Notes under the pieces: model-generated | The model's input: only the letters and a program-made list of their open reading frames with translations | The model's database searches: none | What the model was told of the DNA's origin: nothing | DNA from: Bacteroidales bacterium | GTDB lineage: Bacteria > Bacteroidota > Bacteroidia > Bacteroidales > WCHB1-69 | NCBI GenBank assembly: GCA_017964255.1 | Contig: JAGCSI010000003.1 | Location: forward strand, 1 to 34,818 | DNA length: 34,818 bases | Reading direction: 5' to 3' | Made by a program: the position numbers and the translations under genes | Shown here: piece by piece, positions 869-12,230 of the stretch | Layout: every line of letters begins with the position of its first letter | Position numbering within the stretch: position 1 is the first letter of the stretch

Positions 869-876
869 TATTTTTG
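869..876 (+). promoter_or_regulatory. -7 element of the YhcG gene promoter
   Basis: TATTTTTG followed by CA matches the Bacteroidota -7 consensus TAnnTTTG. It lies 11 bases after the WYL gene stop and about 22 bases before the ATG at 898. It rules out the TTG at 874 as a start, because that codon lies inside the promoter element. Confidence 0.6.
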
Positions 877-897
877 CACTTCACAAATTCTTTAATA

Positions 898-2100
898 ATG
901 ATGAATGAAAAACCAACATTTTTATTCCGAGAAGAAATGACCACCGACGAAGGTTACGTACAATGGATGGCTGACATCAAGCAGCGTTTTCGCCAAAGCC
1001 AAGTAAAAGCGGCGGTCCGTGTAAACACTGCCATGCTTGAGTTTTATTGGAGCTTAGGACGCGACATAGTTGAACTTCGTGCTGAAAGCAAATGGGGAAA
1101 TGGCTTCTTTAATCAGTTGTGTCTTGATTTGAAAACGGCATTTCCCAACGAAAAAGGTTTCTCTGTAACCAACCTCAAATACATGAAACGTTGGTATGCC
1201 TTTTATAATGAAAGAGTTGCAATTCGTCCCCAAGTTGGTGACGAATTTGGTATTGCTTTAGCATCCAAGACGGGTGATAATCAAGATGTTGAAATTCGTC
1301 AACAAGTTGTTGACGAATTAGAAACTGCAAATCGTCAACAAGCTGTTGACGAAAAAGGTCAACAAGTCGTTGGCCAATTGCAATTCCCTGATACATTTGG
1401 TCTTATACCATGGGGCTGTCATATTCTGATTATCTCCAAATGCCAGTCTCTTGATGAGGCTATGTTCTATATTAACAAGGTTGTGGAAGAGGGATGGAGT
1501 CGCAATAGGCTTGAAGCGCAAGTGGCAGCCAATCTATTCGGAAGTCAAGGTGCAGCACTTACTAACTTCGAGCATACACTACCTGCTCCACAGAGCCAAT
1601 TGGCCAAAGAGCTGCTGAAAGATCCCTACCATTTTGAATTTCTCTCCATGGGAGAAGAATACGAGGAACAGGACCTAGAAGATGCGTTGGTGTCCAATGT
1701 CACACGGTTTCTGATGGAGTTAGGCCAGGGCTTTTCGTATGTGGGCCGTCAGATGGAGTTGCAAATGCCTGGAGGACAGACTTTCTTTCCCGACTTACTG
1801 TTCTATCACATACCCCAGCACCGTTATGTGGTCATCGAATTGAAGGTGGTGAAATTCATTCCCGAATTTACCGGCAAATTGAATTTCTATGTGACCGCTA
1901 TTGACGAGCTAATGCGTGGCGAAGGCGACAACCCCACCGTGGGTTTGCTTATTTGCAAATCGACTGACAAAACTGTTGTGGAGTGGTCTCTGCGCGACAT
2001 CAACAAGCCCCTTGGCGTATCCACTTACCAGTTAGAAGAAGTGGTGGAGCGCACGGTGAAGGAGCTGGAGCAAAAGAAAAAAGAAGATTCGCGCAAATAA
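898..2100 (+). CDS. YhcG/DUF1016-family PD-(D/E)XK nuclease-like protein
   Basis: A 400-residue protein with the two-part DUF1016 layout. The N-terminal helical domain runs over about residues 1-100 (YVQWMADIKQRF, FYWSLGRDIVEL, FPNEKGFSVTNLKYMKRWY). A PWGCH-type segment follows near 170, and then the C-terminal nuclease domain. The catalytic pattern is visible: FPDLLFY with Asp299, then VIELK with Glu314 and Lys316. Members occur near type I restriction-modification and other defence genes in many bacteria; their role is not settled. The linker at residues ~109-160 contains four copies of an R/GQQVVDEL-like octapeptide, encoded by DNA palindromes. The start is ATG 898 (or the adjacent ATG 901), because the promoter excludes anything earlier. 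The last codons overlap the left arm of the operator that precedes the next gene. Confidence 0.85.
   Translation: MMNEKPTFLFREEMTTDEGYVQWMADIKQRFRQSQVKAAVRVNTAMLEFYWSLGRDIVELRAESKWGNGFFNQLCLDLKTAFPNEKGFSVTNLKYMKRWYAFYNERVAIRPQVGDEFGIALASKTGDNQDVEIRQQVVDELETANRQQAVDEKGQQVVGQLQFPDTFGLIPWGCHILIISKCQSLDEAMFYINKVVEEGWSRNRLEAQVAANLFGSQGAALTNFEHTLPAPQSQLAKELLKDPYHFEFLSMGEEYEEQDLEDALVSNVTRFLMELGQGFSYVGRQMELQMPGGQTFFPDLLFYHIPQHRYVVIELKVVKFIPEFTGKLNFYVTAIDELMRGEGDNPTVGLLICKSTDKTVVEWSLRDINKPLGVSTYQLEEVVERTVKELEQKKKEDSRK
1222..1375. repeat. Four palindromic repeats inside the YhcG coding sequence
   Basis: Four inverted repeats occur in 154 bases. 1222-1246 has 12-base arms with one mismatch around a central G. 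1294-1318 has perfect 12-base arms (ATTCGTCAACAA and its complement) around a central G. 1332-1352 has perfect 9-base arms around AGC. 1357-1375 has 7-base arms with one mismatch. All share a GTCAACAAG-like core and are read in frame as RPQVGDEF, RQQVVDEL, RQQAVDEK and GQQVVGQL. They sit in the linker just before the conserved DUF1016 PWG segment. Confidence 0.85.
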
Positions 2101-2139
2101 GTTGCGCAAGATGGTTGTATTTTTGCAAACGAAAACAAA
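2087..2139 (+). promoter_or_regulatory. Promoter with palindromic operator, copy A
   Basis: A perfect inverted repeat, GCGCAA (2091-2096), 5-base spacer, TTGCGC (2102-2107), sits just upstream of a -7 element TATTTTTG at 2118-2125. The palindrome covers the expected -33 region, where a bound protein would block the polymerase. The whole 53-base segment is 44/53 identical to 6018-6070, with the same 16-base distance from the right arm to the -7 box and a shared CGAAAACAAA around the expected transcription start. Its left edge overlaps the end of the YhcG gene. It drives the gene at 2164. Confidence 0.75.
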
Positions 2140-2163: not shown

Positions 2164-4506
2164 ATGCAGAAAGCACAAAACAACTTCACGGTAGAGAGCC
2201 TTATCTCAAAGTATCGCAACTTTGTTAAAAATAGAAAAAAAGCAGATGAGCAATTACTTTTAGCTCTCTATAAAACTGTTGCTGGTGAGAGTGCAGACAC
2301 TCGGATCATTGATGCACTTTTGGAATATGCTGACACATTCCAGAAAGATGCTTTATCAGAAGAAGAATATACATACCTTTGTGAAAAATTTGTCGAGGTG
2401 GTCTCCTACGAATTCACTCATCGAAATGAGTGGTTTGATGATCCTGAACTTAATATTTCCGAGGAACGCATCAGGCTTGTGAAAGAACATGTGAAACCGC
2501 AAAAAGGAGCAAGAGTTTTTATTGCTGATGCGGAATACTGTGACCTTGCTGTTATGTTTCCAGATTGTATCATTTCAGGATTCACAGGGGATTATGACCA
2601 GCAGGAAGTTTGGGCACTTGGTCAAATCCGTTTGTATGCGGAAGGTATCAAGTCAGAGATAGTTTCTGGAGAAGGAATTGGTGAAAAATACAGCTACACA
2701 TTGCCCCCTAAAGGTAGTATAGATGTGGTTATTGTTGGAGCAAACGGAAATAAGTATTTTTCCCAGCAATTATTCGGAACTTCATGCAACGATATAGAGG
2801 CATTATATGATTTGCTGAAACCAGAAGGAAAAATGCTGTTTTTTGCGTATTCCATGTTGGAAATGGCAGGAAAAGTATCATATCATTCTGAAATTTTGCC
2901 TTTTCGTAATAGAATTGTTTCGGAAAAGAGCATTTCGTCTATCATCGAGTATGAAGATATAGATTTTGTCACAGATGCAAAAAAATCTTTTTTGCTTCTC
3001 ATTATGGAGAACAAACACAATAAGGAGGTTTTTTTTAAGGACGAAAAAAAGAAAAAAAACTTCTCTGTAAAATCAGAATCACTATGTGGGGATATTTTAT
3101 GGCCAAGCTTCTATAGCACAAAGCGACCTGAAAAAGGAATTCCCCTATCTGAAATAGCGACATTCGTGAATTTGAAAGAAAAAGAAAAGGAAGTCATCAA
3201 GGGGGATGAAAATTGGGTGTTAACAGAAGAAACGAAACAAAAGCCTGTTGTAGTTCCTGCAAAAATGGCTATGGAATACAGAGATGCCAATCTTTTAGCG
3301 CAAAATCTAGATTTGGCAGGAAACCCTGATTTTGAAAATGACAAATTTTGGATAAGATCCATTAAAGAACGCTGTATCCTCCTATACGGAAACAATACAA
3401 AAACTGTTGTTGGCTACATTAGCGAAATACCTAAAACAGGGATAGCAACTCTCTGTCCTATTGTGTGTATTGTACCCAAAGATGGCATTGACGTGCGATA
3501 TATTGCGGCACTGCTCCTAACTTCAGAAGTGAAAGACCAAATTGTTTCAATCTGTCAAGGTCACATAAATGCCGTAACTTTTCCGCTCATCATGGATAAA
3601 GTAATCGTACCTCATCACTCAGATAAGGAAAGGCTCGCTTTTTTATCCGAGGAAAATTATAAAGCGCTGCAATCCACTCAAAAAGAGATGAAGCGTGAGC
3701 ACAAAAATTACATTAAAGCTGTTCGAATGCGTAAACATGCTCTTACCCAGTCGCTATCATCAATAGAAGCTATGTTTTACGCCTTGAATGAATTTCGTAT
3801 CCGTCAAAATGGAAACTTAGTGAATGATGCTGTGATTTCAAGAGTAAAAGGAACTACTGTTCGTGAGGCTTTCGAATTTATATCAAAGAATTTGGAGAAC
3901 ATGATGCCTGCTTTGGAGCATATAGCAGCTGTAGATTATACTTTTAATAAGCCCGAATGGATTGACCCTGAGTTATTCATTGAGGAATATATTAAGAGAA
4001 ACGAGAATGGTTGGCTGAACTTTAAGTCTGTTACTATTTGGAAACAAGGACACAATCAGGCATCTGAAAACATCAAAGATCCTTTATCTGGAGACATTAT
4101 TGTTCCTAAGGGAACCTCAATTCATCAGTTTCTGTTTCCCAAAGACGCTTTAGAACATGTATTCAATAATATCATATCTAATGCTGAAGCACATGGTTTT
4201 GATAATAAAACACGTAATGACTATCAAATTAGATTTTCATGGCATATGGACGGAATAGCCTTGATTGTGGAGATTGATAATAATGGTTCACCTATCTCTA
4301 ATGAAATAGATACAGCGTCTTTATTAGAATATGGAGTTTCCACAGCCCTTCATCACGATGGTCATAATGGCATAGGATGCAATGAAATAGAAGACATCAT
4401 GCAAAGGTATGATGGAAAAGTTCAAATAGTTTCATCTCCAGAAGACGAGTTCCCGGTAAAATATATTCTAACTTTTAATCATTCAAATAATGTTGTGTCA
4501 TTATAA
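2164..4506 (+). CDS. Sensor kinase-like fusion: degenerate N6-methylase + HsdS-like domain + HATPase
   Basis: A 780-residue protein that I do not recognise as a named family; the domains can be read directly. Residues ~1-110 are helical. Residues ~110-290 resemble the HsdM/N6-adenine methylase fold (LKPEGKMLFFAYSML, then an fR..iv.e..i..ii segment, then SFLLLIM). However, the SAM motif is replaced by FIADAEYCD and the NPPY position reads IVGANGN, so methyl transfer looks lost. Residues ~320-500 resemble half a type I specificity subunit (PLSEIATFV, then CIVPKDGIDVRYIAALLLTS, SICQGH, MDKVIVP). A helix follows with a possible phosphoacceptor, His525 in RMRKHALTQSL. The C-terminus is a GHKL ATPase with an N box at 665-677 (HVFNNIISNAEAH), a G1 box DNNGSP at 705-710, and a G2 box GHNGIG at 733-738. 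The stop overlaps the start of the receiver gene. A DNA-sensing kinase is inferred, not shown. Confidence 0.8.
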   Translation: MQKAQNNFTVESLISKYRNFVKNRKKADEQLLLALYKTVAGESADTRIIDALLEYADTFQKDALSEEEYTYLCEKFVEVVSYEFTHRNEWFDDPELNISEERIRLVKEHVKPQKGARVFIADAEYCDLAVMFPDCIISGFTGDYDQQEVWALGQIRLYAEGIKSEIVSGEGIGEKYSYTLPPKGSIDVVIVGANGNKYFSQQLFGTSCNDIEALYDLLKPEGKMLFFAYSMLEMAGKVSYHSEILPFRNRIVSEKSISSIIEYEDIDFVTDAKKSFLLLIMENKHNKEVFFKDEKKKKNFSVKSESLCGDILWPSFYSTKRPEKGIPLSEIATFVNLKEKEKEVIKGDENWVLTEETKQKPVVVPAKMAMEYRDANLLAQNLDLAGNPDFENDKFWIRSIKERCILLYGNNTKTVVGYISEIPKTGIATLCPIVCIVPKDGIDVRYIAALLLTSEVKDQIVSICQGHINAVTFPLIMDKVIVPHHSDKERLAFLSEENYKALQSTQKEMKREHKNYIKAVRMRKHALTQSLSSIEAMFYALNEFRIRQNGNLVNDAVISRVKGTTVREAFEFISKNLENMMPALEHIAAVDYTFNKPEWIDPELFIEEYIKRNENGWLNFKSVTIWKQGHNQASENIKDPLSGDIIVPKGTSIHQFLFPKDALEHVFNNIISNAEAHGFDNKTRNDYQIRFSWHMDGIALIVEIDNNGSPISNEIDTASLLEYGVSTALHHDGHNGIGCNEIEDIMQRYDGKVQIVSSPEDEFPVKYILTFNHSNNVVSL

Positions 4507-5897
4507 TGCGAAGATATATGAAAGCATACGATTTAATACAAGTTCTTTGGGTAGAAGATGATCCAAATGTAATAAAAACATATCCGTTAAAAGCGGAATT
4601 CATGGATTTGGAATTAGTACCATATCCTTGTTGGGATGATGCAAAAGTAGCATTGGAGAATGATTATGATCGGTGGTCTGCAATTATTCTTGATGCAAAA
4701 TGTAAACAACATCGTGAAAGCACTGATAACGCAGTACGATTTCTTGGCGAAGCATTAAAGGATATTGCTGCACTCAGCATGGAAAAAAGGAGGATTATAC
4801 CATGGTATGTCCTTACGGGAGGTGCCGAATCAGAAGTATCGGACTCGATAACAGACGACCGTATGAAATGGGATGCTGATTGGACGAATTCAACAAAAAA
4901 GAAGTACTATTCAAAGAATGTGGACAACGAGATGTTGTACAGGAGGATTAGATACCATACAAAAAAGTCACCACGAGTCCAGATACGGGAAATGTACTAT
5001 GATAGTTACGAGGCTTTATCTACACTCAATCAAGAAGCAAGTGAAATAATCCTTGATATTTTTGAAGCGATGCATTATCCTGTTGATCATCCAGATTTTA
5101 ATCCTGTTTTGTATTACAACCAATTACGTCAAATTCTTGAGTGGAATTTTCGAAATGCAAACAAATACGCAATTATTCCAGATGAATGCATTGTTGACAA
5201 TAAGGTAAATCTTAATCAATGCTGCTGTTATTTGTGTGGTAAGAATGCTACAGCAACAAAAATACCTTTTCGATACGGGGAGTATCGAAACAAAAATGAT
5301 TATGACCGGATTGTTCCTCAGTACATCGAAAATATGATGTTTTTGATATTGAATTTTGGTAACATTAACTCACATACAACAGTGTTAACAAAAACAGATC
5401 AACAAAAATTGGGATCATTTATAAACGATAGTGTGAGAAACTCTAGATACCTTATTTTTAGTTTGGCCCTACAGGTGTGCGAAATAACTTTGTGGATGTA
5501 TAAGTATGTAGGTGAACATCAAGATATTGAGAGAAACAAAGCTATGTTCAGAACAATTGACAATTTAGAACAAGAGAGCGATAATAGAGAGCCCAAAAAA
5601 CAAGTACCCAAAGGTAATGACACTCCAATACAAGAATCATCTGGAATAACAGAGGAAGCTCTGCTATTGCAATGCAAAAAACTTGTGAATGGTAATTATT
5701 ACAAAGGAGTTATTGTTAAGGTCGGTAATCAGTTAAAAGTTAAGTGTGATTTGTATCGTTACCCACTTATGATTAAATCACAAAAAGAAAATATTTCTAA
5801 AGATGATGAGGTTGTGTTTATGGCAGGTCAAGAGCAAAACAATAAAGATCCAAATAAGATTTTTTGGTATGCTGATGATGTATCTTTAAAGAAATGA
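4506..5897 (+). CDS. Receiver-domain response regulator with unassigned C-terminal regions
   Basis: A 463-residue protein starting one base inside the stop of the kinase-like gene (TAATG), so the two are probably translationally coupled partners. Residues ~10-145 form a receiver domain: the acidic pair Asp18-Asp19 in LWVEDDP, phosphoacceptor Asp63 in AIILDAK, Thr104 in WYVLTGG, and Lys137 in YYSKN. All the phosphotransfer residues are present. The middle (~150-345) is helical. It has a Cys cluster (C239-C241, C244) and an LNFGNINSHT segment (His290) reminiscent of the GN..aH stretch in HEPN/DUF4145-like domains; that match is weak. A charged linker (~350-380) leads to a small beta-rich end (~385-463: YKGVIVKVGNQLKVKCDL, then WYADDVSL) that looks OB/cold-shock-like. 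No ordinary DNA-binding output domain is visible, so the C-terminal part may be an effector. An alternative start is Met5 (4518). Confidence 0.8.
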   Translation: MRRYMKAYDLIQVLWVEDDPNVIKTYPLKAEFMDLELVPYPCWDDAKVALENDYDRWSAIILDAKCKQHRESTDNAVRFLGEALKDIAALSMEKRRIIPWYVLTGGAESEVSDSITDDRMKWDADWTNSTKKKYYSKNVDNEMLYRRIRYHTKKSPRVQIREMYYDSYEALSTLNQEASEIILDIFEAMHYPVDHPDFNPVLYYNQLRQILEWNFRNANKYAIIPDECIVDNKVNLNQCCCYLCGKNATATKIPFRYGEYRNKNDYDRIVPQYIENMMFLILNFGNINSHTTVLTKTDQQKLGSFINDSVRNSRYLIFSLALQVCEITLWMYKYVGEHQDIERNKAMFRTIDNLEQESDNREPKKQVPKGNDTPIQESSGITEEALLLQCKKLVNGNYYKGVIVKVGNQLKVKCDLYRYPLMIKSQKENISKDDEVVFMAGQEQNNKDPNKIFWYADDVSLKK

Positions 5898-6017
5898 GAG
5901 CTTATTATAATTAAGTAAATTATAGTCTCACTCGCATATGATTATGTGGGGTTACTCGCAATGTATACCCTCTCCGTTTTTTTGTCATATAACAAGATTC
6001 CAGAATAAACTAATTTT
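5898..6017. other. AT-rich intergenic gap
   Basis: No gene is seen here. It holds a weak A/T hairpin (TATAATT at 5906-5912, AATTATA at 5918-5924, loop AAGTA) without a following T tract, so it is a doubtful terminator for the receiver gene. Confidence 0.3.
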
Positions 6018-6070
6018 ATTCGCGCAAATTGGTTGCGCATAGCGGTTGTACTTTTGCACCCGAAAACAAA
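6018..6070 (+). promoter_or_regulatory. Promoter with palindromic operator, copy B
   Basis: This is the second copy of the segment at 2087-2139. It has GCGCAA (6022-6027), a 5-base spacer of different sequence, TTGCGC (6033-6038), then the -7 element TACTTTTG at 6049-6056 and CGAAAACAAA near the expected start of transcription. The spacer differs while the arms are unchanged, as expected for a protein binding site. It drives the helicase gene. The stretch also excludes the upstream TTG at 6029 as a translation start. Confidence 0.75.
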
Positions 6071-6085
6071 ATACAACACGCCAAT

Positions 6086-8167
6086 ATGGAAAACAAAGAA
6101 ATAGCATTCGACAAAACCAACTTTGAGCAACAGAAAGCATACGACCTTGTGGCTTATACCAACATCAGTCTTTTCATCACAGGGAAGGCTGGTACGGGTA
6201 AAACCACTTTTGTGAAGAGAATCCAAAAGGAAATCAACAAGAACTTTTTGGTTCTTGCTCCCACAGGTATAGCTGCACTTAATGTTGGAGGTCAGACTAT
6301 GCATTCTTTCTTTGGTTTTCCATTGGAGATAATCGGTCCCACAACCCATATGGAAGTGTCGTTAGAGAAAAGACGCGTGCTGGAGAAAACAGATACCATT
6401 ATCATTGATGAGGCTTCGATGGTAAGAGCCGATATGGTGGACGGTATGGATAGATTTCTCAGGGCTTTGACTTATTCGCATTTACCTTTCGGGGGCAAGC
6501 AGGTTGTTTTTGTAGGCGACTTATTTCAATTGCCACCCGTATATAAGCAGGGTACGGCAGATGAAGATATGCTCCGAGACTTTTATGGAAATGGCACCCC
6601 TTATTTCTACAAAGCGTACGCATTGAAACGAATGAATCTGCCCAAGATAGAGTTTCAGAAGGTTTATCGTCAGAAAGATCAGCCTTTTTTGGATGTTTTA
6701 GACCGTATGCGTGTAGGAGAAAATATTCAAGAGGATTTTGAAATCATTAATGAACATGTGAGTTCTGATGACAAAGTTGGAGATTATTCAGTTACCCTGA
6801 CGGCTTATAATAGAATTGCTGAAAGCATTAATGAGATGAAGTTAGACGAGATAGAAGCAGAGGAATTCTGTTATGAGGGGGAGTTAGATGGAAAATTCAA
6901 GATGCAAGATGCGCCAGTGCCGGTTAAACTGCAGCTGAAAGTTGGTGCCCAGGTAATCTTCTGCCGCAACGATTATCCAAGAGGTGTGGTGAATGGAACC
7001 ATTGCCATTGTGACTAAATTGACCGATGACAAAATTGTTGTGGTTTTGGAAAATGGCAAAACACTCAAAGTGGAAAAGATGGTGTGGGAGAGTAAGGAAA
7101 GTGTATATAATGAGGATACCCGAAAGGTTGAATCGAAGGTTGTGGGAAGTTTTACACAATATCCTTTGAAACTGGCTTGGGCTATCACGATACATAAGTC
7201 GCAGGGAATGACTTTTGACCGTATGCATTTCGATTTGACTCGAGGAACATTTGCTCCTGGACAGGCGTATGTAGCCATCAGCCGTATGCGTTCGTTAGAT
7301 GGACTTACATTGAGCAACAAGTTGCGCTCATATCATATCAAACAGAATGCCGAGATCAGGGCTTTTGCCAACTCGTTTAACGATGTGCCCATGATAGATG
7401 AGGAGTACAAGTTTGGTAAGGATTTCTCCACATATTTTTATAAGCATGACTATGATGGTGCTGTTCAGGTGTGCATGAAACAAGTCGTTGCCAAAATCAA
7501 GAGCGGAGACTACAGAAATGCAGCTCTCGTTGCCAAACGGATGTTCGATGTGATGCTTGACGATGAATGTCTGCATGATGCCACAAAGAATGTCCCATTG
7601 CTGAAGGATTGCAGCATGACCTGTGACTTTCTGAATGCTGTGTTGTGCCTCTACAAAGGCAGATATGAGGAAGCTATAGGATATTCGGACATGGTATTTG
7701 ACAAAAAGACAGCACAAAAAAAGAATCCCTGTCTCGAAGCACTATTTGTCAAAGCAAAAGCACTGTATCGTTTGGAACGATACGAAGAAGCTGACAGTGT
7801 GGTCAAATTTATTCGTGAAATTTCGAACAATTCAGATGAGAAGATTGCTATCGATAAAAAACAATACCTGTTTGAAGCGCAACTCAATCAGAAACTTGGA
7901 TATTCAAATATTGAAACATGCCGTCATTTGGTAAAGCTATGTCCAGAGTATTTGCCCGCATACATGGTGATTCGTAAAGAAGCACTTACCAGTAACTTGC
8001 ATGTTGGGATGGATGAGGAAGAAGAGGGAAATGCTTTTGTTGTGGCTTTCAATGACAAAGCTGTTTCTGACAGCGATTTTGAAAAGATACTCAAAGAGGC
8101 AGACAAAAACAGTACAGAGTTTCAGATATTTAGCCGAAGGGTTCGAAGAATTAACACGACAGAATAG
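6086..8167 (+). CDS. Pif1/RecD-like superfamily 1 helicase with helical-repeat C-terminus
   Basis: A 693-residue ATP-dependent DNA helicase. Walker A is GKAGTGKTT with Lys39; Walker B is IIIDEAS with Asp108-Glu109; FVGDLFQLPPV is motif III, and YRQKD motif IV follows. The C-terminal core motifs are AITIHKSQGMTFD and AYVAISRMRSLDGL, typical of the Pif1/RecD2 group. The helicase core ends near residue 440. Residues ~450-640 look like tetratricopeptide-type helices (KGRYEEAIGYSDMVF, KAKALYRLERYEEAD). These would give a protein-docking surface. The start is ATG 6086, 30 bases after the -7 box. Shared promoter architecture links it to the kinase/receiver cassette upstream. Substrate and partners are unknown. 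Confidence 0.85.
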   Translation: MENKEIAFDKTNFEQQKAYDLVAYTNISLFITGKAGTGKTTFVKRIQKEINKNFLVLAPTGIAALNVGGQTMHSFFGFPLEIIGPTTHMEVSLEKRRVLEKTDTIIIDEASMVRADMVDGMDRFLRALTYSHLPFGGKQVVFVGDLFQLPPVYKQGTADEDMLRDFYGNGTPYFYKAYALKRMNLPKIEFQKVYRQKDQPFLDVLDRMRVGENIQEDFEIINEHVSSDDKVGDYSVTLTAYNRIAESINEMKLDEIEAEEFCYEGELDGKFKMQDAPVPVKLQLKVGAQVIFCRNDYPRGVVNGTIAIVTKLTDDKIVVVLENGKTLKVEKMVWESKESVYNEDTRKVESKVVGSFTQYPLKLAWAITIHKSQGMTFDRMHFDLTRGTFAPGQAYVAISRMRSLDGLTLSNKLRSYHIKQNAEIRAFANSFNDVPMIDEEYKFGKDFSTYFYKHDYDGAVQVCMKQVVAKIKSGDYRNAALVAKRMFDVMLDDECLHDATKNVPLLKDCSMTCDFLNAVLCLYKGRYEEAIGYSDMVFDKKTAQKKNPCLEALFVKAKALYRLERYEEADSVVKFIREISNNSDEKIAIDKKQYLFEAQLNQKLGYSNIETCRHLVKLCPEYLPAYMVIRKEALTSNLHVGMDEEEEGNAFVVAFNDKAVSDSDFEKILKEADKNSTEFQIFSRRVRRINTTE

Positions 8168-8230
8168 GTGCTATTTGTAGATTCATTGTATAGAACACAC
8201 ATAATTTATCAACCTTAAAAATACAAGTTT

Positions 8231-8383
8231 ATGAACATTTTCAATCAGATTAAACAGTTTCTAAATTCCCTAGTAGATGGGAAGCCTTGCGACACCGAAA
8301 ACTTATCAAACACAAAGAGTAATCAAGACCTGTTAGAAGAAATTCAAGAGAGAATCCGTGAACTTCAGAGAAGAGGGATATAA
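8231..8383 (+). CDS. Small hypothetical protein (50 aa)
   Basis: A 50-residue ORF, ATG 8231 to TAA 8381-8383. It begins MNIFNQIKQFLNSLVDGK and ends in a charged helix LLEEIQERIRELQRRGI that could form a short coiled coil. It lies in a 275-base gap between the helicase and the lipoprotein gene, on the same strand. No clear promoter or homologue is recognised. Codon use looks plausible for a gene, but a chance ORF cannot be excluded. Confidence 0.45.
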   Translation: MNIFNQIKQFLNSLVDGKPCDTENLSNTKSNQDLLEEIQERIRELQRRGI

Positions 8384-8442
8384 AAGTGTCTTGCTTGCGA
8401 TGATTCTTAATTAAATTTACTTCATTCTGCAAAAAAATAATT

Positions 8443-8712
8443 ATGAAACACGTTAAGTACAAACCTATTGCATTTTTCGTTTTTTGCACCATCGTGCTTT
8501 CCTCTTGCAACCCACACCAGACCTTATCGGAAGACAATAATCCAACACAACAGGAACAGAGCCATCATGAAGATCGTCGATTTGGACAACCCGTTAGGCA
8601 AGTTGTCAATCAAACCACTGGTGAAGTGTTTGAACTGGATTCAACTTGGTATCTTGACACAGTGTGGTCAGAGGAATATGGTACATACATCTTGGAGATA
8701 ACACAACGGTAA
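8443..8712 (+). CDS. Small putative lipoprotein (89 aa)
   Basis: An 89-residue protein with a lipoprotein signal: a positively charged start MKHVKYK, a hydrophobic stretch, and the lipobox LSSC (Cys22). The mature part is polar, with TGEVFELDSTWYLDTVW near the C-terminus. No family is recognised. It is probably anchored to a membrane on the periplasmic side. It sits between the small ORF and the HicBA pair and may be part of the accessory region's cargo. Confidence 0.6.
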   Translation: MKHVKYKPIAFFVFCTIVLSSCNPHQTLSEDNNPTQQEQSHHEDRRFGQPVRQVVNQTTGEVFELDSTWYLDTVWSEEYGTYILEITQR

Positions 8713-8756
8713 ATTATAATACCAATTTTTTCATTCTGGTGTGTTGGAAAATTTTG

Positions 8757-8764
8757 TACTTTTG
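8757..8764 (+). promoter_or_regulatory. -7 element of the hicBA promoter
   Basis: TACTTTTG followed by CA matches TAnnTTTG, 16 bases before the ATG at 8781. It shows that the open frame upstream of 8781 is not translated as part of HicB. Confidence 0.6.
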
Positions 8765-8780
8765 CATTGCAATAAATAGC

Positions 8781-9161
8781 ATGAAAATGAGAACGGCATT
8801 TATCACCAAAGACAAAAACGAATATATTATCAAGATCTCCGTTGTGCAGTTCAAAGAAGATAATACTTTCATTGTATATTGTCCCGCTTTGGATTTAACA
8901 GGTTATGGTCTGTCAGACGAAGAAGCAAAGCAGTCTTTTCAGACAGTTCTGCTCGAATACATTCGTTATGCCGACAACAAAGGCACATTGGATGCTGATT
9001 TGCAGGCCCATGGATGGACAAGGCTGAAATCAAAAAAGGCATCACTTGTACCGCCTTCTATGACTGAACTGTTGGCTACCAACGAGAATTTCAGCCAGAT
9101 ATTCAACACCCAGCCCTCATATCAGAAGTATGATATGCCACTCCAAGTAGCTTTAAGTTAG
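8781..9161 (+). CDS. hicB: HicB-type antitoxin
   Basis: A 126-residue protein with the HicB fold, a partial RNase H-like beta-alpha domain over residues ~15-75. Visible are YIIKISVVQFKEDNTFIVYCPALDLTGYG in two parts and the helix DEEAKQSFQTVLLEYIRY. HicB proteins neutralise the HicA mRNA interferase and often repress their own promoter. The C-terminal ~40 residues (LVPPSMTELLATNENF onward) contain no obvious DNA-binding helix-turn-helix. The start at 8781 is chosen because the -7 element lies just upstream. It ends five bases before the toxin gene, giving antitoxin-first order, as is common for hicBA in Bacteroidota. Confidence 0.8.
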   Translation: MKMRTAFITKDKNEYIIKISVVQFKEDNTFIVYCPALDLTGYGLSDEEAKQSFQTVLLEYIRYADNKGTLDADLQAHGWTRLKSKKASLVPPSMTELLATNENFSQIFNTQPSYQKYDMPLQVALS

Positions 9162-9166
9162 GTCAT

Positions 9167-9403
9167 ATGGGTCAAAATCCGTTAAAAAACATTCCGCTCA
9201 AAACATTTCGAGACTTCCTCACCTTTATGGGATTGAAGCCCATCCGAATTGAAAGTGGCCACGAAATATGGAGCCGGACAGATTTGCGGAGAACTGTTGT
9301 GATACAAACTCATATAGACCCTATTCTGGAATTCATCGTAAGAAACGCTTTGCGGACAATGAATGCAACAAAAGATGATTACATAGAGTTTCTGAAATCA
9401 TAA
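9167..9403 (+). CDS. hicA: HicA-type mRNA interferase toxin
   Basis: A 78-residue protein matching the HicA dsRBD-like fold in size and layout. An N-terminal helix (LKTFRDFLTFMGLKP) leads to a beta hairpin with the catalytic histidine in ESGHEIWSR (His32). A second strand (RRTVVIQTH) and a C-terminal helix (FIVRNALRTMNATKDDYIEFL) complete it. HicA cleaves mRNAs during translation. It lies directly after its antitoxin and is the last accessory gene before the pyrimidine block. Confidence 0.8.
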   Translation: MGQNPLKNIPLKTFRDFLTFMGLKPIRIESGHEIWSRTDLRRTVVIQTHIDPILEFIVRNALRTMNATKDDYIEFLKS

Positions 9404-9448
9404 CATCCCAAAATTATAATTCACATTTAAACGTTAAATCACAACGAC

Positions 9449-10312
9449 ATGATAATTGATAAACTTTTTGAACGTGTAGCCCGTAACGGCCATGTTTGTG
9501 TCGGCTTGGACACCGACTATTCCTACCTTCCCGAAGCATTTGCAGCACAATTCGCCACCAAAGGCGAAGCTGTTTTCCAGTATAACAAAACCTTGATTGA
9601 CGCCACCCTCGACGTGGTGGCTTGCTACAAGGTACAGATTGCCTATTACGAAGCGATGGGCTTGGAAGGCATGGACTGCTACCGCAAGACTTTGGCTTAC
9701 TTGCGCGAAAAAGACGCCATCATCATTGCCGATATCAAGCGCGGCGACATCGCCAAAACCGCCGAAATGTATGCCAAAGGTCATTTCACCGGCGATTTCG
9801 AGGCCGACTTCATCACCGTCAGTCCCTATATGGGCTTGGATAGCATTTCTCCATATCTTCCTTATGTTCAGAATAATAACAAAGGTTTATTCGTCCTGAT
9901 CAGAACCTCCAACGAGGGTGCGAAAGACATTGAATACATTGAAACCGCTGACGGCAGACACGTGTATAATATTGTGGGAGAGAAAATTAACGAATTAGGC
10001 AAGGATTACAAAGGCAATTGTGGCTTCTCCGCTATCGGAGGTGTGATGGGCTGCACCCATGCCGACGAGGCTGCGGAAGTGCGCCGCCAGCTGGACAGCA
10101 CCTTCTTCCTGATTCCCGGCTATGGTGCCCAAGGCGGCAAAGCCGAGGACATCGCCCTCTACCTGAAAGACGGCAACGGCGGTGTGGTCAACGCTTCCCG
10201 CTCCATCTTGCTGGCTTACCGCAAAGTGGAAAACGGCGCCGACAAATTCGCTGAATGCTCACGCAACGAAGCCATCAGGATGAGGGACGATATTCGTGGA
10301 GCAATAAAATAA
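9449..10312 (+). CDS. pyrF: Orotidine 5'-phosphate decarboxylase
   Basis: A 287-residue type 2 OMP decarboxylase that makes UMP from OMP, the last step of de novo pyrimidine synthesis. The catalytic motif is DIKRGDIAKTA with Asp95, Lys97 and Asp100. The N-terminal GLDTDYSYLPE and the phosphate-loop region GYGAQGGKAED also fit. Its length matches the longer class found in Bacteroidota and Actinobacteria. pyrK and pyrD follow on the same strand, so the three form a pathway cluster, though repeat-filled gaps separate them. Its GC content is clearly above that of the genes to its left, marking the start of core chromosome. No clear -7 box is seen in the 45-base gap upstream. Confidence 0.95.
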   Translation: MIIDKLFERVARNGHVCVGLDTDYSYLPEAFAAQFATKGEAVFQYNKTLIDATLDVVACYKVQIAYYEAMGLEGMDCYRKTLAYLREKDAIIIADIKRGDIAKTAEMYAKGHFTGDFEADFITVSPYMGLDSISPYLPYVQNNNKGLFVLIRTSNEGAKDIEYIETADGRHVYNIVGEKINELGKDYKGNCGFSAIGGVMGCTHADEAAEVRRQLDSTFFLIPGYGAQGGKAEDIALYLKDGNGGVVNASRSILLAYRKVENGADKFAECSRNEAIRMRDDIRGAIK

Positions 10313-10315
10313 GAA

Positions 10316-10410
10316 CTCCCCTCGAGCACGTAGTGCGAGACTCCCCCTCACCTTCTAACCTCCTAACCTCCTAACCATCCTAACCATTAAACACTAACCC
10401 CTAATCACTA
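10316..10410. repeat. Intergenic repeat region between pyrF and pyrK
   Basis: Positions 10316-10346 hold a 31-base unit with a GCAC-GTA-GTGC hairpin flanked by CTCCCC. It is 30/31 identical to 11191-11221. A run of CTAACC-type units follows (CCTTCTAACC, TCCTAACC, ATCCTAACC), then AAACACTAACCCCTAA just before the pyrK ATG. Confidence 0.8.
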
Positions 10411-11157
10411 ATGCAATACACCAAACAAACCATAATCACCAACAAACGACTGATAGGAGACATATTCCTCCTTCAGGTCACACGGCCCGAAGGGGAAATC
10501 CGTCCTGGGCAGTTTTTCATGTTGAAAAGCTGGAATGAAGAGCTGACACTCATGCGTCCCATCAGTGTTTATCGCTTTGACGAACAATCGGTATCGTTCA
10601 TGTACCGTGTGGCAGGCAAAGGCACCCGCTGGCTCAGCGAATGCAGCCAACGTGACCGCAACAAAGACATCATGCTCTTGGGCCCGCTGGGCAACGGCTT
10701 CCCTTGTGAGGAAGTACACGGTCATATTGCCCTCGTCGGCGGCGGCATCGGCATTCCCCCTCTCTACGAGACCGCCAAGAAACTGACAGCCTTGGGCAAC
10801 CAGGTAGACATGTATCTGGGATACAAGGATGTGCTTTTTGCCTTCGAAGAGTTCGAGGATGTTAGCGAGAACATTTTCATCTCCTCCGAAGCCGGCTTTG
10901 AAGGCTACAAAGGCTTCATCACCGACCTGCTGAAACCGGAACAATACGACGCCGTGTTCACCTGCGGTCCCCTGGTGATGATGCGCAAGATTGTGGAGAT
11001 GTGCCAACTGCATAATACCCCCATCTGGTGCTCGATGGAGAAACACATGGGCTGCGGCATCGGTGCCTGCCTCACTTGCAGCTGTAAGACCACCAACGGC
11101 ATGAAACGCACCTGCAAGGACGGCCCGGTATTCAAGGGAGAGGAGTTAGTGTTTTGA
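10411..11157 (+). CDS. pyrK: Dihydroorotate dehydrogenase B, electron transfer subunit
   Basis: A 248-residue iron-sulfur flavoprotein that passes electrons from the PyrD FMN to NAD+. The N-terminal ferredoxin-reductase-like FAD domain contains MRPISVYR. The NAD domain has GGGIGIPPLYE and TCGPLVMM. The C-terminal 2Fe-2S cluster ligands are Cys215, Cys220, Cys223 and Cys235 (GCGIGACLTCSC, then RTC). The partner pyrD follows 167 bases downstream. Length and motif order are typical for PyrK. Confidence 0.93.
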   Translation: MQYTKQTIITNKRLIGDIFLLQVTRPEGEIRPGQFFMLKSWNEELTLMRPISVYRFDEQSVSFMYRVAGKGTRWLSECSQRDRNKDIMLLGPLGNGFPCEEVHGHIALVGGGIGIPPLYETAKKLTALGNQVDMYLGYKDVLFAFEEFEDVSENIFISSEAGFEGYKGFITDLLKPEQYDAVFTCGPLVMMRKIVEMCQLHNTPIWCSMEKHMGCGIGACLTCSCKTTNGMKRTCKDGPVFKGEELVF

Positions 11158-11324
11158 GAGTTGACAATTGACAATTGACAATTCAACAAACTCCCCTCGA
11201 GCACGAAGTGCGAGACTCCCCTTTGGACGAAGTCCACTCCCCTTGAGCGAAGCGAAACTCCCCCTCACCTTCTAACCTTCTCACCTTCTAACCCCTAAAC
11301 ACTAAAACCTAACCCCTATAACCT
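11158..11324. repeat. Intergenic repeat region between pyrK and pyrD
   Basis: Three families occur in order. TTGACAA units (11159-11184) come first. Then a series of short hairpins separated by ACTCCCC-like spacers: GCAC-GAA-GTGC at 11201-11211, GGAC-GAA-GTCC at 11225-11235, and a weaker GC-GAA-GC at 11247-11253. Then CTAACC and AAACACTAA units lead to the pyrD ATG. The unit at 11191-11221 repeats 10316-10346. Confidence 0.8.
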
Positions 11325-12230
11325 ATGAAAAGCAGATTAAACATCACCCTTCACGATAAAGAATTCAAGAACCCCTTGATTGCGGCTTCGGGGTCCTTCG
11401 GTTTCGGTAAAGAATACAACGAGCTCTACCCCATCGACTGCTGGGGAGGCATCAGCAGCAAAGGACTAACCCTGCACGGACGCGAGGGCAATCCCGGCAT
11501 CCGCATCACCGAGACACCTGCGGGTATCATGAACAGTGTAGGACTGCAAAACCCTGGCGTGCGGGCTTTTATTGACGAGGAACTGCCCTGGATGAAGCAG
11601 CACGACACCGTCATCCTGGCCAATCTCGGAGGGCATAGCACCGAAGACTACCTGACCGGTGTGGAATGGCTGAACGACAGTGACATAGACATTCTGGAGC
11701 TGAATATCTCCTGCCCTAACGTGAAAAGCGGTGGCATGGCCTTTGGTTTGAAGGCGGAAGTGGCCCACGAGATTGTGAGCCAAGTGCGCAAAGTCTGCCG
11801 CAAACCCCTGATGGTGAAGCTCTCTCCCAATGCCGAAAACATCATCGACATGGCAAAAGCCTGCCAAGATGCCGGTGCAGACTCCATTTCTCTGGTCAAC
11901 ACCTTCAAAGCCATGGCCATCGACATCCGTCGTCGGAAGCCCGTCTTCGAAAACGTTTATGCCGGATTGTCGGGCAAAGCCATCAAACCCATCGCCCTGC
12001 GCATGGTGCACGAAGTATGTAAAAACGTCAGCATTCCCGTGGTTGGCATGGGAGGTATCACCACCGCCGAAGATGTCATTGAGTTTATGATGGCAGGCTG
12101 TACCGCCGTGCAAGTTGCCACCGGCAACTTCACTCACCCGATGCTCGGACAAGAACTACCCCTTCAGCTCATCCAACTGATGGACGAACTGAAAATCGAA
12201 CATATCAACGATATTAAGGGAATTATATAA
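11325..12230 (+). CDS. pyrD: Dihydroorotate dehydrogenase B, catalytic subunit
   Basis: A 301-residue class 1B enzyme that oxidises dihydroorotate to orotate using FMN. The active-site base Cys130 is in [12 protein letters not shown], the class 1 signature. The FMN phosphate region is [20 protein letters not shown], with NTFKAMAID before it. With PyrK it forms the NAD+-linked heterotetramer used in the cytoplasm. The first two residues of the downstream inverted repeat fall in its stop codon. Confidence 0.94.

Follow-up and report, generated by a model that had tools for sequence, protein, structure and literature searches.

Histidine kinases sense small molecules, light, membranes and proteins. 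The described systems closest to the gene pair analysed here are type I restriction-modification (HsdM/HsdS), Detocs, MADS, the DUF4145 HEPN proteins and PorX. MADS uses a protein Ser/Thr kinase together with a working methylase. Detocs consists of three genes, including a receiver protein with a nucleoside-phosphorylase effector (PMC11249213), and the output of PorX, a Bacteroidota response regulator, is a PglZ-type phosphodiesterase domain (PMC12839542). The pair lies on 34,818 nucleotides of Bacteroidales DNA (contig JAGCSI010000003.1, positions 1 to 34,818; hereafter the window) and encodes a sensor histidine kinase with an HsdM/HsdS-like head, followed by a response regulator. We consider it probable that the two form a two-component system, in which a kinase with a predicted type I restriction head, its methylation motifs missing, likely reads DNA and signals to a partner predicted to act on nucleic acid.

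With type I HsdM/HsdS the kinase shares the HsdM fold, less firmly an HsdS-like region followed by a long helix, segment exchange and, through its relatives, the operon neighbourhood. It differs in having no NPPF/Y motif, in its fusion to a histidine kinase, in its receiver partner and in the absence of an adjoining HsdR, none being found among the neighbours (WYL, DUF1016 and PIF1 genes) in a family scan of the window's open reading frames (ORFs) up to position 11157. Like Detocs, the pair combines a kinase and a receiver protein amid defence neighbours; unlike Detocs, it has two genes, no nucleoside-phosphorylase effector and a sensor of restriction origin. Detocs membership was rejected because neither the pair nor its neighbours gave a nucleoside-phosphorylase (PNP) match in Pfam, NCBIfam or PADLOC. 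Two divergent kinases, of locus L050 and of the first copy at L007, match the PADLOC mad2 methylase model of MADS (2e-9 and 2.7e-5); MADS membership of the window pair was rejected because the window kinase has no mad2 match in PADLOC at E ≤ 0.1. The regulator resembles DUF4145 HEPN proteins in an R-x-x-x-E helix and a GN-x-x-S-H motif, and differs from them in that the similarity is weak and the RX4-6H motif missing. Foldseek placed PorX at the top of its list for the regulator by virtue of the receiver, in which the two are alike; the PglZ-type phosphodiesterase domain has no counterpart in the window regulator.

PADLOC gave no match for either protein of the window pair at E ≤ 0.1. Pfam recognised the GHKL domain alone in the kinase and nothing in the regulator, NCBIfam added weak histidine kinase matches, and PDB sequence searches with the kinase and regulator profiles reached 0.019 (a histidine kinase) and 0.033 at best. 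In Pfam, NCBIfam and PADLOC 2023 the pair has no counterpart among named systems, and no description of it was found in open-licence PMC text, subscription papers and preprints lying outside that scope; the original prediction, made from the letters of the window, had not recognised the design as described, and within these sources that held. We rate the sensor design as categorically new, each half belonging to a known family.

A kinase with a restriction-like head and its receiver partner

By predicted fold and profile comparison, the kinase consists of an HsdM fold, an HsdS-like region, a long helix carrying His525 and a GHKL kinase, in that order. The original prediction had proposed the same architecture, which was confirmed, with the methylase fold found and the HsdS-like part less firm. 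The HsdM fold, a hallmark by which type I restriction-modification is recognised, was found in the head with VIA-align, whose structural matches include HsdM/HsdS complexes with Ocr and ArdA (7eew, 7bst, 7bto). The HsdS-like region gave a profile E of 0.0027 and Foldseek matches to M.TaqI/CamA. A type I restriction origin of the sensor head is supported.

Conservation was assessed in 119 of 120 listed kinases, out of 952 matches (P0012, a fragment, was omitted). None of the 119, the window protein included, has the methylase NPPF/Y motif; NPP is retained in invariant columns in a yardstick set of 11 HsdM. GxG is missing in 105/119, the window protein among them, and present at the motif I place in 14/119 (G-x-G occurs anywhere in residues 113–135 in 21/119). 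The methylase of the head is predicted to be inactive. A type I methyltransferase, ordinary or modified, that has an accessory ATPase and can still methylate would fit the HsdM fold, the 14 kinases with GxG and the NPPL of one divergent relative; we give it next to no credence, given the loss of NPP in all 119, the complete kinase core with its invariant His and the strict partnership with a receiver. An active methylase was rejected on the loss of NPP.

The marks of a two-component system are present: a conserved His on a two-helix hairpin, a GHKL ATPase with N (669/673), G1 (NNG, 706–708) and G2 (733–738) boxes and, in the adjoining gene, a receiver with acidic pocket, Asp, Thr and Lys. The kinase and regulator ORFs overlap by one base at 4506, both on the + strand. 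The claim that the next gene, with a one-base overlap, encodes a receiver with all phosphotransfer residues held as well. Across lineages, the His, N box and NNG motif are common to 7/7 aligned kinases and the receiver Asp to 8/8 aligned regulators, in an alignment that omits L118 and L119. The G1 box is Asn-Asn-Gly in all 119 listed kinases and in the aligned divergent lineages. The usual residue in GHKL proteins is Asp where the window kinase has Asn, and ATP use or specificity may differ.

The regulator alignment comprises the query and 119 of 120 listed sequences, out of 574 matches (P0122, a partial query copy, was omitted). In the DUF4145/HEPN-like domain R208, E212 and G285-N286-x-x-S289-H290 are invariant. 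DUF4145 matches were obtained for 5/24 regulators at E ≤ 0.1 (best E 0.0046), and the divergent L043 regulator carries R-x6-H. The terminal barrel alone retrieved nothing useful from Pfam or PDB sequence searches, and a viral structure library gave no match to the regulator at E ≤ 0.001, with CSD- and S1-type matches at E 0.24–0.36. Regulator residues after ~155 were barely tested, because the 50 VIA-align rows are receivers only.

A pattern-based scan of 84,980 genomes, each representing one species (misses likely), yielded 18 loci, 19 with the window. The regulator adjoins the kinase in 19/19 (gap –41 to +15 nt), in line with the expectation that the pair would be conserved in other genomes. 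At L007, L015 and L018 a second, divergent kinase-regulator pair stands in tandem, with a palindrome before each pair. Most of the records belong to Bacteroidales; L004, assigned to Lachnospiraceae, and L006, a 3.5-kb contig that bears the label Erysipelothrix, are possible binning errors. A pattern scan of viral contigs matched 19 stretches, none encoding a relative, and a plasmid search returned 0 records with the window kinase and 0 with the L050 regulator. A further relative matched in G054 (E 8.7e-4).

Segment exchange and relatives in type I operons

Among the 7021 pairs in the kinase alignment, 25 have kinase parts ≥88% identical with heads <65% identical, and 15 have heads ≥88% identical with kinases <78%. 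P0027 and P0065, like P0031 and P0073, are 95–100% identical to about residue 250, 25–60% over ~260–505 and 93–100% from 512. In these clearest of the mosaic pairs, which are not independent of one another, the recognition region has been exchanged in one piece that stops shortly before His525. Eight and three contigs stand behind P0065 and P0031, which argues against chimeric assembly for these two; P0027 and P0073 come from one contig each. Swapping of a recognition segment between otherwise near-identical proteins is a likeness to HsdS.

Some divergent relatives lie in type I restriction operons. At L050 (MT835483.1) the gene order is WYL-kinase-regulator-HsdM-HsdS-HsdR, and the order as far as HsdS recurs in the Myroides odoratimimus plasmid pFM-G13 and in genome G469, making three loci with L050. 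Phage origin of L050, a record labelled Bacteriophage sp., was rejected on its flanking TraM, DUF4138 and type IV secretion system (T4SS) coupling protein genes; because conjugation genes flank it, it is a conjugative element, apparently mislabelled. The pFM-G13 kinase is annotated as an N-6 DNA methylase, and three plasmid records of the same length are listed. At L118 (12102–14951, Myroides plasmid), a hypothetical and a phospholipase-D-like gene follow HsdM-HsdS at the place expected for HsdR. Divergent kinases at L050 and L043 match the Specificity_I family, and the L043 kinase (genome G005, 1472 aa) gives N6_Mtase 4.4e-19, MTase_I 2.5e-22 and Specificity_I 9.4e-7. The NPPF site reads CPPF in L050, TPPF in L119, IPPF in L043 and NPPL in L118; at the GxG site, 3/4 have FAGxA, and L050 retains the motif (SGIGE). 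A WYL gene precedes the divergent pairs of L043 and L044 (genome G004). The L043 kinase has ~780 extra N-terminal residues, and the regulator and a 340-aa gene follow it (7101–11519); at L044 (6204–8537) WYL-kinase-regulator is followed by a HAD/phosphoribosyltransferase-like gene and then a DprA-like gene.

These operons also bear on a different use of the head. A dead HsdM/HsdS head could be an integrated decoy, a bait for DNA-mimic anti-restriction proteins of the Ocr and ArdA type, with the kinase raising an alarm when restriction is blocked. Relatives that share an operon with an HsdM-HsdS pair, the Ocr and ArdA complexes among the structural matches and a fold kept after loss of the catalytic motif all suit this idea. 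We nevertheless hold it decidedly unlikely: specificity for DNA sequence accounts better for the swapping of recognition segments, and the window's own genome, 74% complete, has no HsdM or HsdS family match.

The proposed relay and what weighs against it

Under the DNA-reading interpretation, the head would encounter a target sequence in the DNA of an invader, the long helix after the HsdS-like part would relay the change to the kinase, His525 would become phosphorylated and the phosphate would move to D63 of the next gene's product, whose DUF4145/HEPN-like and OB-like domains may in turn attack or bind nucleic acid, so that either the invader or the cell is stopped. The WYL protein of the surrounding cassette likely controls the pair through the palindrome before the module. 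Our inference of DNA reading draws on the fold together with the exchange of segments, that of phosphotransfer on residue conservation, that of the regulator's output on weak domain evidence and that of a defence role on neighbourhood, patchy distribution and mobile carriers. The original prediction had suggested that a DNA-reading module taken over from type I restriction may control phosphotransfer to an effector; that interpretation is supported in part, by the restriction origin of the head, the gene pairing and the defence neighbours.

Several observations weigh against this reading. The window kinase head has no Pfam or PADLOC match, and its profile comparisons reach modest E-values, with low probabilities in hhalign (47.7% and 11.3%). 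The recognition region is barely covered by VIA-align and exceeds the other parts in variability by a moderate margin (mean identity 0.59 vs 0.64 and 0.75), and a number of mosaic pairs come from one contig each, so that chimeric assembly could explain them. Because 14/119 retain GxG, some kinases may still bind S-adenosylmethionine. On the regulator side, the HEPN evidence is weak (hhalign E 0.18), RX4-6H occurs in 0/120 window-family regulator rows, the OB assignment of the barrel depends on a predicted model and the receiver Lys is unaligned in the divergent L050 and L043 regulators. The pair is rare, found in 1/295 genomes of the order, the window's own. In the palindrome pattern described below, WYL group B does not form a single clade (2 changes).

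On a wider proposal we are evenly divided: that these proteins form a class of DNA-reading histidine kinases whose type I restriction heads abandoned methylation and kept exchangeable specificity, and which signal foreign DNA by a His-Asp relay to a HEPN/OB regulator acting on nucleic acid, arising as the alarm of type I operons and later becoming a free, swappable two-gene module in WYL-controlled cassettes. If true, a DNA-sequence-reading kinase built from a retired restriction enzyme would link restriction-modification to signal transduction, and likely non-methylases annotated as 'N-6 DNA methylase', such as the Myroides plasmid gene, would have a role. Defence specificity could then be traced by comparing natural segment exchanges, and the function of pseudo-methylases would be directly testable.

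The cassette, its exchange slot and its cargo

The pair is flanked by a WYL gene and a DUF1016/YhcG gene on one side and by a PIF1/RecD-like helicase gene on the other (Table 1). In G008, a genome of the same genus without the kinase, WYL, DUF1016 and helicase proteins are 96.5%, 97.8% and 98.2% identical to those of the window (DNA 94–95%), the intact WYL counterpart having 356 aa. Homology ends at 2139 and restarts at 6014, at two copies of a 53-nt repeat that carries the palindrome GCGCAA-N5-TTGCGC and TTGTAnTTTTGC, which we take to resemble Bacteroidota promoters. In the pair's place, the genes of G008 encode an AAA_15 ATPase (PADLOC NsnB/AriA models), a 329-aa protein and a DUF2971 protein (L079, G008:C60). 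Judged from this sequence comparison, the pair is an exchangeable module that occupies a fixed cargo slot, and the cassette around it encodes a WYL regulator of its own. A core mechanistic role of the helicase was rejected, given the near-identical helicase, WYL and DUF1016 genes of G008 without the pair, and helicase homologues in 28/60 genomes vs a full-length window-family kinase in 1/60 (the window's own). The window helicase has a weak PADLOC mad8 match (0.0014), and the DUF1016 gene contains short internal direct repeats of 28–52 nt (window 1205–1377).

Table 1. Positions of the cassette genes, protein domains and repeats in the window (residue numbers refer to the encoded protein)
Feature	Positions	Strand	Evidence or remark
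WYL-domain regulator, 5' end lost at contig start	1..858	+	Pfam WYL 9.6e-12
DUF1016/YhcG PD-(D/E)xK nuclease gene, cassette cargo	874..2100	+	Pfam 5.4e-54, 5.1e-33; PADLOC PDC-S02 1.2e-133
53-nt repeat, copy 1	2087..2139	+	Palindrome and promoter-like sequence; G008 homology stops at its end
Palindrome GCGCAA-N5-TTGCGC, putative WYL operator	2091..2107	.	
Sensor histidine kinase with HsdM/HsdS-like head, 780 aa	2164..4506	+	
Pseudo-HsdM domain, residues 5–323	2176..3132	+	Neither GxG nor NPPF/Y
HsdS-like target-recognition region, residues 324–486	3133..3621	+	Exchanged as block among homologues
Long helix and helical hairpin, residues 487–590	3622..3933	+	Helices 487–547, 566–587
Codon of candidate phosphoacceptor His525	3736..3738	+	H in 119/119 listed homologues
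GHKL ATPase domain, residues 598–771	3955..4476	+	Pfam HATPase_c_5 5.5e-5
Response regulator, 463 aa	4506..5897	+	
Receiver domain, residues 9–155	4530..4970	+	D63 codon 4692–4694
DUF4145/HEPN-like helical domain (weak), residues 165–346	4998..5543	+	
Five-strand beta-barrel, OB-like, residues 398–461	5697..5888	+	AlphaFold strands, weak structural matches
53-nt repeat, copy 2	6018..6070	+	83% identical; palindrome 6022–6038
PIF1/RecD-like cassette helicase	6086..8167	+	Pfam PIF1 6.7e-34; ATG 6086 (ORF list: TTG 6029)

Genome-wide, the palindrome occurs twice in G008, both times in the cassette, and three times in the window's genome (G000), twice in the cassette; the third copy (L089, G000:C12:405-421), close to the end of a contig, adjoins a DUF4062/RecG-like gene and may belong to a second cassette. 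Across loci, four palindrome types (≤1 mismatch) were defined post hoc after inspection, and controls were scored with the same four types. A palindrome precedes the kinase in 18/18 loci with upstream sequence, vs 0/119 control ORFs and 22/4000 random windows (nine control loci). It precedes the helicase in 11/17, and for 5/6 misses a palindrome is situated farther upstream, where the preceding regulator gene ends. Palindrome type goes with the clade to which the adjacent WYL regulator belongs, the WYL types needing the minimum possible number of tree changes (3). A WYL regulon is the simplest reading of this pattern, with the palindrome as putative operator. Taken together, the swap in G008 and the correlation of palindromes with WYL clades show how such defence modules change places and are probably brought under one regulator.

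WYL is present in 16 of the 19 loci and the helicase in 17; L006, L009 and L012 have no WYL where the contig begins, L006 no helicase where the contig ends, and L016 no helicase outright. Cargo between WYL and helicase includes AbiEi/AbiEii (L013, L018), an AbiL-type ATPase with RloB (L007), DUF4062 (L003), DUF488 twice with DuOB (L005), Schlafen AlbA_2 (L008, L011) and DUF1016 (window, L017 and, by similarity, L001), besides unnamed genes at L001, L009, L012 and L015; no cargo gene of at least 90 aa stands there at L002, L004, L010 and L014. The pair keeps company with AbiE, AbiL, AlbA_2 and other defence genes.

Such surroundings invite the reading that the pair senses invading DNA or loss of methylation and merely switches neighbouring defence modules, the regulator binding nucleic acid by its OB-like domain rather than serving as an effector. 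The OB-like barrel at the regulator's end, the defence cargo often around the pair and the palindrome type shared with the helicase module would suit it. Yet no helix-turn-helix family match was found in the regulators (Pfam, 24 members), the common palindromes vary with the clades of the WYL protein, which explains them, and the cargo varies or is absent by locus while the pair persists; we think this reading rather unlikely. The pair might also be a two-component system that serves some purpose other than defence, such as surveillance of host methylation or replication, and simply lies in a defence neighbourhood; the want of a PADLOC match for the window pair would agree with this. Such a role is very improbable in view of the patchy spread of the pair (1/295), its exchange, in a fixed slot, for a module with an AAA ATPase, the AbiE/AbiL/AlbA_2 neighbours and the occurrence of type I operons both on a plasmid and on a conjugative element. 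At L004 (8543–14095), the cassette is followed by genes for a C5 cytosine methylase and a large protein of the ResIII/Eco57I type, which make up a further restriction system.

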